Shown piece by piece: positions 15,251 through 22,649 of a DNA stretch of 64,000 bases; the first letter of the stretch is position 1; every line of letters begins with the position of its first letter. The notes below the pieces were generated by a model. That model did no database searches, was not told the DNA's origin, and worked only from the letters and a program-made list of their open reading frames with translations. Made by a program: the position numbers and the translations under genes. Origin of the DNA: Paramesorhizobium salinisoli (GTDB taxonomy: Bacteria > Pseudomonadota > Alphaproteobacteria > Rhizobiales > Rhizobiaceae); assembly GCF_003335045.1 (NCBI RefSeq), contig NZ_QOZG01000004.1, positions 434,001 to 498,000 of the forward strand, given 5' to 3'.

Positions 15251-16423
15251 TCAGAGCTTTCCCTCGATCGAAGCTTCCAGCAGTTCCAGAACATTCTGTT
15301 TCGTCAGCTTTACCGGATTGCCTCCGGCGGTCGGGTCAGCCAGCGCCATGTCGGCGATCAGTGCCTTGCGCTTGTCATCCATTTCCAGGCCCTTGATCAG
15401 CCCCGGCAGTTTGTGCGGCACCTTCAACTGCTTGCGCAGCTTCAGAACGGCTTTAGCGAAGCCGTTGAAGCCGCCTTTGATGCCGAGATAGCGCGACAGG
15501 CGGACGATCCGTTCCTCGACCGCGTCGCGGTTGAAGGCCAGCACATAGGGCATGAACACCGCATTGGTCATGCCGTGATGCGTGTCGTAGAGGGCGCCGA
15601 TGGGGTGTGACAGCGAATGGATCGCGCCGAGCCCTTTCTGAAAGGCGGTAGCGCCCATGGCGGCGGCGCTCATCATATTGGCGCGCGCCGTCAGATTTTT
15701 GCCGTCCGCATAGGCTTTGGGCAGGTTCTCGAAGACGAGGCGCATGCCTTCGACCGCTATGCCGTCGGCCATGGGGTGATAGCCTGGCGCGCAATAAGCT
15801 TCCAGACAATGGGCGAATGCGTCCATGCCGGTGCCTGCGGTGATGAAGGGCGGCATTCCGACGGAGAGTTCGGGATCTGCTATCACGGTGACCGGAAGCA
15901 TCTTCGGGTGGAAGATGACCTTCTTGGTATGGGTGGCCTCATTGGTGATGACCGCCGCGCGGCCCACCTCCGATCCGGTGCCCGCCGTGGTCGGCACGGC
16001 GATAACAGGCGCGATGGCGCTGGCATCGGCGCGCGTCCACCAATCATCGACATCCTCGAAATCCCAGAGCGGGCGGCTCTGCCCCGCCATGAAGGCTATG
16101 AGCTTGCCCAGGTCCAGCGCCGAGCCGCCGCCAAAGGCGATCACGCCGTCATGTCCGCCGTCCCGGAAGACATTCACGCCCGCGTTGAGATTGGACTCCA
16201 CCGGGTTGGGCTTGACCTCGGAAAAGACGCCGTAGGATGCACCTGTATCGTCAAGAATCTTCAAAGTCCTGGCGACGACAGGCAATTGCGCGAGGCCGGG
16301 ATCGGTAACGAACAGTGGATTGGCGATGCCTGCACTGACCAGGACATCGGGCAATTCCTTGATGCGTCCCTCGCCGAAAAGCACTGTTGTGGGGTAGTTC
16401 CATTTGGAGAAGAATTTGGTCAT
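15251..16423 (-). CDS. Iron-containing alcohol dehydrogenase
   Basis: A group III NAD(P)-dependent alcohol dehydrogenase that oxidises primary alcohols to aldehydes in the cytosol. Length is 390 residues. The nucleotide loop is GGGSALD (about 98-104). Metal ligands match the family: Asp201 and His205 in GMDAFAHCLEAY, then His269 and His283, with catalytic His273 in SHPIG. It is the last gene of the leftward five-gene unit, 27 bases after the aldehyde dehydrogenase. I infer oxidation of a gamma-glutamylated amino alcohol from context; by itself the enzyme's substrate is unknown. Confidence 0.9.
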   Translation of the reverse strand: MTKFFSKWNYPTTVLFGEGRIKELPDVLVSAGIANPLFVTDPGLAQLPVVARTLKILDDTGASYGVFSEVKPNPVESNLNAGVNVFRDGGHDGVIAFGGGSALDLGKLIAFMAGQSRPLWDFEDVDDWWTRADASAIAPVIAVPTTAGTGSEVGRAAVITNEATHTKKVIFHPKMLPVTVIADPELSVGMPPFITAGTGMDAFAHCLEAYCAPGYHPMADGIAVEGMRLVFENLPKAYADGKNLTARANMMSAAAMGATAFQKGLGAIHSLSHPIGALYDTHHGMTNAVFMPYVLAFNRDAVEERIVRLSRYLGIKGGFNGFAKAVLKLRKQLKVPHKLPGLIKGLEMDDKRKALIADMALADPTAGGNPVKLTKQNVLELLEASIEGKL

Positions 16424-16450
16424 GCACTTGTCTTTCAGGCGGTTGGCTTT

Positions 16451-17836
16451 TCAGATCGTCTCACGCAAATGATAGGATTTCGGTCGCGTGAGATTGGCGT
16501 AGCCGATGGCGGAGAGGGCGGCACCCTTGCCAGTGTCCTTGACGCCGGTCCAGACCAGCGCGGGATCGAGATAGTCGCAGCGGTTCATGAACACCGTGCC
16601 GGTTTCGATCTTGTCGCCGAGACGCGCGGCATGATCGGTGTCGGCGGTCCATAGCGAGGCGGTGAGGCCATAGGGGCTGTCATTCATCAGCGCCAGCGCT
16701 TCGTCGTCATTGCGCACCTTCATGATACCGACGATGGGCCCGAAGCTTTCCTCGCGCATGACGCTCATCTGGTGATCGACATGGGTCAGCACTTCGGGCG
16801 CCAGATAGGGCGAGCCCGGCCTGTCTTCCGCCACCATCATGCCGATATGGGCCTTGGCGCCCTTGCGCAGCGCTTCCGCCTTTTGCTCACGGATCAAATC
16901 GGCGAAGCGGGCCTGGGCCATCGGTCCCATGGTCGTGGCCTGATCGAGCGGGTTGCCGACGACATATTGTCTGGTGAGATCAATGAAGCCGTCAACGAAT
17001 TTGTCGTAGATATTCTCATGCACATAGACGCGCTCGATGCCGCAGCAGCACTGGCCGGTGTTGAAGAATGCGCCGTCAACGAGATTGGCAACCGCGTGGT
17101 CAAGATTTGCGTCGGGAAGGACATAGGCCGGGTCCTTGCCGCCAAGTTCCAGGCCCAGCGTCATGAAAGTGCCTGCGGCGGCCCGTTCGATTGCCTTGCC
17201 GCCGCCCACGGAGCCGGTGAAGTTCACATGGTCGATGCGCCCCGAGGCGAGCAGTCTTTCCGTCTGGCCATGGTTCAGCACGATATTCTGGAAAACGCCC
17301 TTGGGAAGGCCAGCCTTGTCAAAGGCTTGTTGGAAGCGTTCGCCCGCCAGAAGCGTCTGGGCGGCGTGTTTCAACAGAACCGTGTTGCCGGCGATCAGCG
17401 CCGGCATGATGGTATTGACGGCGGTGAGATAGGGATAGTTCCACGGCGCGATGACCATGACGATACCGAGCGGCACATGCTTGACATAGCGGCGGAAGCC
17501 GGCCCTGTCGCCCGCGATGACCGGCTTGAGCGCGTCCTCAGCGATCTTCACCATATAGCGCGTGCGCTCCTCGACGCCGCCCTTCTCGCCGCCGTAACGC
17601 ACGGGGCGACCCATCTGCCAGGCAAGTTCCTGCACGATTTCGTCATTCATCGCGAGAAGTGCTTCGAGAGCGGCGAGGCAGTAACGTCCGCGCTCGGCTA
17701 TCGGCGTCTCAGCCCATGCCGCTTGAGCAGCGCGCGCGGCTTCCACCGCCGCGTCAAGCGCCTTGTCGCTGAAGACGGGACGTTCCGCATAGATCGAACC
17801 ATCGACGGGCGAGACGATTTTCACCGTTTCGGTCAT
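16451..17836 (-). CDS. NAD(P)-dependent aldehyde dehydrogenase
   Basis: A 461-residue aldehyde dehydrogenase that converts an aldehyde to the carboxylate. The general base is Glu230 in LELGGKDP and the catalytic Cys is most likely Cys264 in NTGQCCCG; PWNYPY and FTGSVGGG mark the cofactor site. It resembles succinate-semialdehyde/betaine-aldehyde type enzymes. Neighbours are the iron alcohol dehydrogenase downstream and the ligase upstream, so alcohol to aldehyde to acid is a natural two-step chain. The predicted substrate, gamma-glutamyl-aminoacetaldehyde, is inference. Confidence 0.9.
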   Translation of the reverse strand: MTETVKIVSPVDGSIYAERPVFSDKALDAAVEAARAAQAAWAETPIAERGRYCLAALEALLAMNDEIVQELAWQMGRPVRYGGEKGGVEERTRYMVKIAEDALKPVIAGDRAGFRRYVKHVPLGIVMVIAPWNYPYLTAVNTIMPALIAGNTVLLKHAAQTLLAGERFQQAFDKAGLPKGVFQNIVLNHGQTERLLASGRIDHVNFTGSVGGGKAIERAAAGTFMTLGLELGGKDPAYVLPDANLDHAVANLVDGAFFNTGQCCCGIERVYVHENIYDKFVDGFIDLTRQYVVGNPLDQATTMGPMAQARFADLIREQKAEALRKGAKAHIGMMVAEDRPGSPYLAPEVLTHVDHQMSVMREESFGPIVGIMKVRNDDEALALMNDSPYGLTASLWTADTDHAARLGDKIETGTVFMNRCDYLDPALVWTGVKDTGKGAALSAIGYANLTRPKSYHLRETI

Positions 17837-17905
17837 TTTCTTTTCCTTTTAGTTCTTCGTTCTACGCAAGTCCGGACGGCAACGGGCTCTTTTTCCTGAA
17901 CTTGC

Positions 17906-21695: not shown

Positions 21696-21714
21696 TCATG
21701 TTCCCCGAGGATTG

Positions 21715-21767
21715 TACTGTTTGTTACAGTATCTATTTAAATGTCTCGTGTCGTATGATTTGATACA
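21715..21767. promoter_or_regulatory. Candidate operator pair between amine unit and rpiR-type gene
   Basis: A perfect inverted repeat TACTGT-N5-ACAGTA lies at 21715-21731. A second related site, TGATTTGATACA at 21756-21767, resembles TGTTTGTTACA within the first. Both are in the short region between divergent starts (21695 and 21816), where the RpiR protein or another regulator would be expected to bind. Confidence 0.55.
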
Positions 21768-21815
21768 AAGTGCCGCGATTTGTCAAACATGAATCTGGCG
21801 CGAGGGGCGAGCGAA

Positions 21816-22649
21816 ATGAAAGCAAGCATATCCGAGCTGATCGGCGAAAAGATCGTCTCGATGTCGGCCAGCGAGCGCAGGGCGGCGCAGACGCTGATTG
21901 CGCATTATCCGCTGATCGGCCTGAAGACGGTCGCGGATTTTTCGGCGCAAGCCGGGGTGAGTTCCCCAACCATCCTGCGCTTCGTGGCAAGGCTTGGCTT
22001 TTCCAATTATCCCGAGTTTCAGGCAGCGTTGCAGGAGGAATTGGCAGCGCAGATCCAGTCGCCGCTGACACGCAACCTGGCGCCCCAATCAGCCCGGCCG
22101 CAGAGCGCCTTTGCGCAGGTCGATGCAACGCTCGAAAATATCCGCGAGACCTTCAGCCATCTGCCAGAAGCACAGATCGCGGAGATCGCCGCGATGCTGA
22201 GCCGGCCGCGCGGCCACATCCATCTCGTCGGCGGACGGTTTACCGATCCGATCGCGCGCTATATGGCAGTCCATATGCAGATCATCCGCCCCGGCGTGGT
22301 TCATCTCGATGGGCAGGAGAGCAACTGGCGCGATCGGCTGATCGACATGGGCAAGCGCGACGTGCTGGTGATCCTCGACATTCGCCGCTATCAGGAGAGC
22401 CTGCTTCGCTTTGCCGAAAAGGCGCAGGCGCGCGGTGTCGAAATCGTGCTCCTGACCGACCAGTGGCTTTCGCCCATCGCCCGCTTTGCCCGCCATGTGA
22501 TCGCCGGACGGACGGCTGTCCCCTCGGCGTGGGATTCGACGGCGGCTCTTTTCGTCGTGGCGGAAACCCTGATCGCCGAGATCACGCGCCATGCCGAGGA
22601 GACCGCCAGCAAGCGCATCCGTGAAATGGAAGAATTGCGCGGCGAGTAA
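21816..22649 (+). CDS. RpiR/HexR-like transcriptional regulator
   Basis: An RpiR-family regulator of 277 residues. The N-terminal HTH_6 domain (residues 1-75) contains KTVADFSAQAGVSSPTILRFVARLGF. A SIS domain follows (about 115-245; HIHLVGGRFTDPIARY), which normally senses a sugar phosphate or other phosphorylated compound. The ATG at 21816 has an AGGGGCGAG site; starts at 21780 (TTG) and 21789 are less likely. It is divergent from the amine unit and upstream of gnd, so either could be its target. The SIS ligand is unknown. Confidence 0.9.
   Translation: MKASISELIGEKIVSMSASERRAAQTLIAHYPLIGLKTVADFSAQAGVSSPTILRFVARLGFSNYPEFQAALQEELAAQIQSPLTRNLAPQSARPQSAFAQVDATLENIRETFSHLPEAQIAEIAAMLSRPRGHIHLVGGRFTDPIARYMAVHMQIIRPGVVHLDGQESNWRDRLIDMGKRDVLVILDIRRYQESLLRFAEKAQARGVEIVLLTDQWLSPIARFARHVIAGRTAVPSAWDSTAALFVVAETLIAEITRHAEETASKRIREMEELRGE

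Follow-up and report, generated by a model that had tools for sequence, protein, structure and literature searches.

Gene clusters for ethanolamine use through gamma-glutamyl intermediates have been described in several bacteria, and they provide the framework for interpreting a five-gene operon and its divergent regulator gene in Paramesorhizobium salinisoli. The stretch of DNA analyzed here, which we call the window, comprises 64,000 nucleotides of contig NZ_QOZG01000004.1 (positions 434,001 to 498,000), and the cluster lies at 15251-22649 within it. A review assigns to Chromohalobacter salexigens a PF00120 ligase, a PF00465 alcohol dehydrogenase, a PF00171 aldehyde dehydrogenase, and a PF05013 gamma-glutamylglycine amidohydrolase (PMC9397018), and PMC10132767 credits the pathway in this organism and in Agrobacterium tumefaciens C58 to Vetting et al. 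2015. In Phaeobacter sp. MED193, the genes follow one another by locus tag as RpiR, hydrolase (GGAH), importer (EtoVWX), ligase (ETAGA), aldehyde dehydrogenase (GAADDH), and alcohol dehydrogenase (GETADH) (Westermann et al. 2023, PMC10132767). The hydrolase, the EtoX binding protein, the ligase, and both dehydrogenases of this strain are raised on phosphorylethanolamine, and EtoX binds ethanolamine with a Kd of 7.9 uM (PMC10132767). In Streptomyces coelicolor, GlnA4 is a gamma-glutamylethanolamide synthetase (Krysenko et al. 2019, PMC6529630), and the last step has been proposed to involve the formylglutamate-amidohydrolase family in the discussion of that paper and a glutamine amidotransferase in its Fig. 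2 legend.

The window's cluster resembles two of these systems closely. Its four enzymes belong to exactly the Pfam families that the review lists for C. salexigens (PMC9397018). Similarly, the regulator family, hydrolase, ligase, dehydrogenases, and order of the Phaeobacter genes match those of the window, as compared by locus tags rather than gene orientation in the published account.

Gene content and proposed route

The cluster is a real, well-conserved operon of five leftward genes accompanied by a divergent RpiR gene, and all of the frames are open. Very probably, it serves the use of ethanolamine as a source of nitrogen, and possibly of carbon, via the gamma-glutamyl route, and it is probably controlled by the RpiR protein. 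Its genes are as follows.

15251..16423, minus strand: iron-containing alcohol dehydrogenase (PF00465 and PF25137), predicted to convert gamma-glutamylethanolamide to the aldehyde
16451..17836, minus strand: aldehyde dehydrogenase (PF00171, E 1.6e-118), predicted to convert the aldehyde to gamma-glutamylglycine
17906..19276, minus strand: ligase resembling glutamine synthetase (GS) (PF00120), putative gamma-glutamylethanolamide synthetase
19355..20869, minus strand: Eat-like APC permease (PF13520), putative ethanolamine importer
20931..21695, minus strand: PF05013 hydrolase (157 bits), putative gamma-glutamylglycine amidohydrolase rather than HutG
21816..22649, plus strand: divergent RpiR-family regulator (PF01418, HTH_6, and PF01380, SIS); the longest open reading frame (ORF) starts from TTG 21780

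Gene identities, order, and relationships are direct observations. A first-pass annotation of this DNA had named the same five leftward genes and their families, a spacing of 27-78 bases, and the divergent RpiR gene, all of which are borne out by the ORFs, Pfam, and NCBIfam. The successive gaps calculated from ORF coordinates are 27, 69, 78, and 61 bases, and the Pfam E-values of the six proteins span 1.6e-118 to 4.7e-12. The alcohol dehydrogenase carries the metal-ligand motifs GMDAFAHCLE, HSLSHPIG, and HGMTN, and the aldehyde dehydrogenase carries the motifs FFNTGQCC and ELGG. For the permease, the top NCBIfam model is TIGR00908, "ethanolamine permease" (373.8 bits), and the protein is 49.7% identical to a Thermomicrobium protein annotated with the same name.

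The substrate, the regulation, and each of the reactions are assigned by analogy with published related clusters. Ethanolamine would be imported by the Eat-like permease and coupled to the gamma-carboxyl group of glutamate by the GS-like ligase, using ATP. Two oxidations, by the iron alcohol dehydrogenase and then the aldehyde dehydrogenase, would turn the hydroxyl group into a carboxylate, yielding gamma-glutamylglycine, which the PF05013 hydrolase would cleave to glutamate and glycine. This succession of import, gamma-glutamylation, two oxidations, and cleavage had already been proposed in the first-pass annotation, and it gains support from the published clusters, the ligase phylogeny, the active-site residues, and a partial exclusion with EutB in the family.

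Ligase and hydrolase relationships

The ligase was placed in a tree of 66 rows, which covers neither GlnA4 of S. coelicolor nor the ligases of Phaeobacter and C58. The window protein falls within a 46-row clade (99/99) that holds all cluster ligases of the tree, including an Embleya protein. GlnA (100/100) and PuuA (95/88) both fall outside this clade, such that the ligase groups with neither of the two families that, according to the first-pass annotation, would have spoken against the pathway. The nearest outgroup is IpuC of Paenarthrobacter plus one paralogue (89/86); a long-branch warning applies to PuuA and IpuC. The window ligase is 56% identical to a Ruegeria cluster ligase, and the nearest solved structures are PDB 11zs (805 bits) and 5dm3 (556 bits), the latter presumably C. 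salexigens Csal_0679. Four of the five same-genus genomes searched encode ligases that are 94-95% identical to the window ligase.

Active-site residues separate the window ligase from glutamine synthetases that use ammonium. At the GS positions D50, S53, Y179, N264, and E327 (numbering and residue roles as in the Salmonella enzyme), it has P, R, D, A, and F, with the N-terminal positions D50 and S53 less securely aligned than the others. The compared residues for binding metals, glutamate, and phosphate are retained, and by this alignment the ammonium-site residues are lost. Among 40 proteobacterial cluster ligases, position 179 is D in all 40 and position 327 is F in 39.

The hydrolase also has informative relatives. 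The window's genome contains four PF05013 genes, and residues H31, D56, R88, H151, and E223 are conserved across 71 cluster hydrolases with at most one exception each. The structure 2odf ("hypothetical protein Atu2144") matches the window hydrolase at 191 bits, and its match to the cluster hydrolase of A. arsenijevicii reaches 525 bits and covers all 257 residues. A solved relative of the cluster hydrolase thus exists, and, judging from these sequence matches, A. tumefaciens C58 probably carries the same operon.

Related loci, importers, and alternative readings

Gene neighborhoods were examined around the best 80 of at least 587 confirmed ligase relatives, to which 11 loci from relatives were added to give 91, with genes located by tblastn; 80 of these loci had sufficient flank. 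In 62 of the 80, the RpiR, hydrolase, aldehyde dehydrogenase, and alcohol dehydrogenase genes lie beside the ligase gene, which answers the neighborhood comparison suggested in the first-pass annotation, and RpiR is oppositely oriented in 61 of these 62 full clusters. Of the importer slots in the full clusters, 13 hold an Eat-like permease, 31 a second APC type, and 17 a TRAP transporter; one is empty, and none holds two importers at once. Neither these nor the gene-set proportions are a census, because the loci were chosen by ligase similarity. The position of the slot is constant, between hydrolase and ligase in 61 of 61 importer-bearing full clusters.

The two APC types share little similarity (E 0.02 and 0.35 with two second-type proteins, 3e-5 with that of Allomeiothermus) and match different NCBIfam models. 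Among the matches listed, the closest named ligases come from two Phyllobacterium records (88% identical), both of which have the second APC type; therefore, the importer appears to have been swapped within or near the genus. Such distributions suggest that the importer is interchangeable in this family, and because it varies among related clusters, its type was not taken to define the pathway. Agrobacterium clusters, including that of A. arsenijevicii, have the Eat-like permease too, and thus the published C58 work probably covers the Eat variant as well.

Clusters of more distantly related bacteria vary in further parts. In that of Arthrobacter, the hydrolase is of the amidotransferase type and is joined by a short-chain dehydrogenase (annotated 3-oxoacyl-ACP reductase), and a similar dehydrogenase (annotated glucose 1-dehydrogenase) is present in the Allomeiothermus and Thermomicrobium clusters. 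On plasmid pAA03 of Aminobacter aminovorans, which is typed as conjugative, an importer-less cluster (L164, 5175-15342) adjoins bhcRABC of the beta-hydroxyaspartate cycle, and glycine from that cluster could feed the cycle.

The distribution of EutB provides a separate line of evidence. The first-pass annotation had seen no EutBC or microcompartment genes in the window; across the whole genome, neither EutB (PF06751) nor the shell family PF00936 has a match, the EutC family not having been searched. In a family sample of 151 genomes, 110 have the ligase, 26 have EutB, six have both, and 21 have neither (Fisher p 5e-9). Counted by genus, the ligase is found in 79, EutB in 23, and both in seven of 109 genera (p 2e-6). 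The overlap was counted by hand, and two draws of the family were taken as the same genomes since totals and handles agree. One same-genus genome (G004) has EutB and lacks the ligase. These counts suggest that the gamma-glutamyl route and EutBC tend to replace each other in the family. Three genomes that also carry the ligase (G069, G083, and G156) have lower-scoring EutB matches (474-478 bits) in frames of 795-802 amino acids, longer than most, which perhaps represent a fusion or variant.

Three other explanations were considered for the cluster. The same chemistry might act on another preferred amino alcohol, such as aminopropanol or alaninol, as might be imagined from the annotation of the nearest outgroup ligase, the IpuC type, for isopropylamine and from the differences in importer type between clusters. 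We regard this as improbable given that related clusters are tied by experiment to ethanolamine, that the permease is Eat-like, and that the family shows partial exclusion with EutB. A putrescine pathway of the Puu type is more improbable still. It would agree with the ornithine/DAP-decarboxylase-family gene and speF leader that adjoin the operon, and the GGputSyn model does match the ligase at 203.9 bits, but this is far below its cut-off of 650, and PuuA sits in a separate clade, albeit with the long-branch warning. Furthermore, the five operon genes include no amine oxidase, a putrescine route has no need of an alcohol dehydrogenase, and the hydrolase is of the PF05013 rather than the PuuD amidotransferase type.

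It is hardly credible that the hydrolase is the HutG of histidine breakdown or that the ligase is an ordinary glutamine synthetase, as the family names PF05013 and PF00120 might imply. The hydrolase scores 26 bits on the HutG model TIGR02017 against a cut-off of 278.75, and another gene of the same genome is a true HutG at 398.9 bits. Likewise, the ligase reaches 243 bits on the GlnA model against a cut-off of 429, it has lost the ammonium-site residues, and the genome encodes a separate GlnA. The Puu-type pathway, a HutG role, and a true glutamine synthetase were accordingly rejected on model scores under cut-offs, the ligase clade, and residues.

Several observations weigh against the ethanolamine route as laid out here. 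A same-genus genome, G001 (locus L034, 3502-6735), has the permease, ligase, and dehydrogenases but is missing the hydrolase and RpiR genes between gnd (85% identical to the window's gnd) and the permease, and a genome search found no other close hydrolase copy there. All eight Pseudomonas loci with enough flank (L069, L072-L076, L078, and L079) are without a linked PF05013 hydrolase and RpiR, although the ligase is accompanied by both dehydrogenases in seven of them; the hydrolase is therefore not always linked. One of these loci, L074, has an AraC-type regulator upstream. The permease score falls slightly below the curated TIGR00908 cut-off of 381.75, and the D50 position remains D in five of the 40 cluster ligases. 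A class-wide sample of 289 genomes (ligase in 31, EutB in 23, both in one) gave no significant exclusion (p 0.49), and therefore the effect is shown only within the family, where the test handles relatedness solely by collapsing genera. Also, several later steps of the pathway are themselves termed predicted or proposed in the source papers: the Phaeobacter pathway is termed predicted in a figure legend (PMC10132767), and that of C. salexigens is described as "predicted in an in silico approach" (PMC6529630). On the C. salexigens route, these two papers thus express different degrees of certainty.

A broader reading that joins these observations is offered tentatively, and we hold it to be somewhat doubtful as a whole. 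The gamma-glutamyl route might be the main ethanolamine route of the Rhizobiaceae sensu lato and, in evolutionary terms, the alternative to B12-dependent EutBC, with one slot exchanging Eat-like, distant second APC, and TRAP importers. An Asp 179 and Phe 327 signature of the ligase might recognize ethanolamine, and clusters lacking the hydrolase, as in G001 and Pseudomonas, might either rely on an unlinked peptidase or have gamma-glutamylglycine as their end product.

Regulatory region, flanking genes, and comparison with known systems

The region between the hydrolase and RpiR genes was aligned across 18 regions, drawn from the window, three same-genus genomes, Phyllobacterium, Mesorhizobium, Aminobacter, Aquibium, Brucellaceae, and two metagenome bins. 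Three features stand out.

21713..21728, read on the minus strand: second conserved 16-base element, imperfect palindrome TGTAACA-AA-CAGTACA, possible RpiR operator (alignment and motif test)
21752..21767, read on the minus strand: first conserved 16-base element, imperfect palindrome TGTATCA-AA-TCATACG, possible RpiR operator (alignment and motif test)
21779..21787, minus strand: TTTGACAAA, candidate -35 element for the promoter of the hydrolase gene, with TTTGACAA in 18 of 18 aligned regions

Allowing up to three mismatches, the 16-base elements occur at all 17 loci of origin and at eight and nine, respectively, of 42 other loci (shuffled rates of 6% and 2%), with two further loci skipped for length; four Mesorhizobium loci account for the near-exact occurrences among the 42. 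The elements are possible RpiR operators on this pattern of conservation. A general operator motif for all clusters was rejected, given the eight and nine of 42 occurrences outside the loci of origin. No clear -10 element was identified. Judging from the intergenic alignment, the RpiR start is more likely ATG 21816 than TTG 21780.

A tRNA scan of the window returned nothing, and an Rfam scan gave no match within the operon. Outside the operon, at 12919-13225 and 13258-14493, Rfam matches well above the gathering score mark an ar45 small RNA and a speF leader immediately upstream of the ornithine/DAP-decarboxylase-family gene, which runs toward the 3' end of the operon. The speF leader is associated with ornithine decarboxylase genes. 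Farther away, a flagellar gene cluster (35485-61847) encodes members of the FlhB, FliG, FliM, FliI-type ATPase, FliF, MotB, FliK, FlgE, and FlgK families, and a Pfam search gave no match for the ORFs at 55008-56276 and 46310-47692.

The operon adds a further case of a pathway that gives bacteria the use of a common membrane-lipid headgroup while requiring neither vitamin B12 nor a microcompartment, and the database names "glutamine synthetase" and "N-formylglutamate amidohydrolase" can be corrected for these genes. The first-pass annotation had considered a last enzyme of the N-formylglutamate-amidohydrolase type unusual; the PF05013 family is confirmed, but a PF05013 last step had already been published or proposed in the literature cited above.

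Like the window's cluster, the S. coelicolor genes SCO1610-1615 include a gamma-glutamylethanolamide synthetase and an aldehyde dehydrogenase, but they have a short-chain dehydrogenase where the window has an iron alcohol dehydrogenase (PMC6529630). As a proxy for the GlnA4 cluster, that of Embleya was examined; it resembles the published gene set and has a last enzyme of the amidotransferase type. Next to the Embleya ligase lie this hydrolase, an Eat-like permease that scores 488 bits on TIGR00908, the aldehyde and short-chain dehydrogenases, and a weakly regulator-like ORF. In the slot filled by the window's Eat-like APC permease, Phaeobacter sp. MED193 has the TRAP transporter EtoVWX, and C. 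salexigens is likewise credited with a TRAP-type binding protein. The pathway is already in print, and the window's cluster is distinguished solely by its type of importer.

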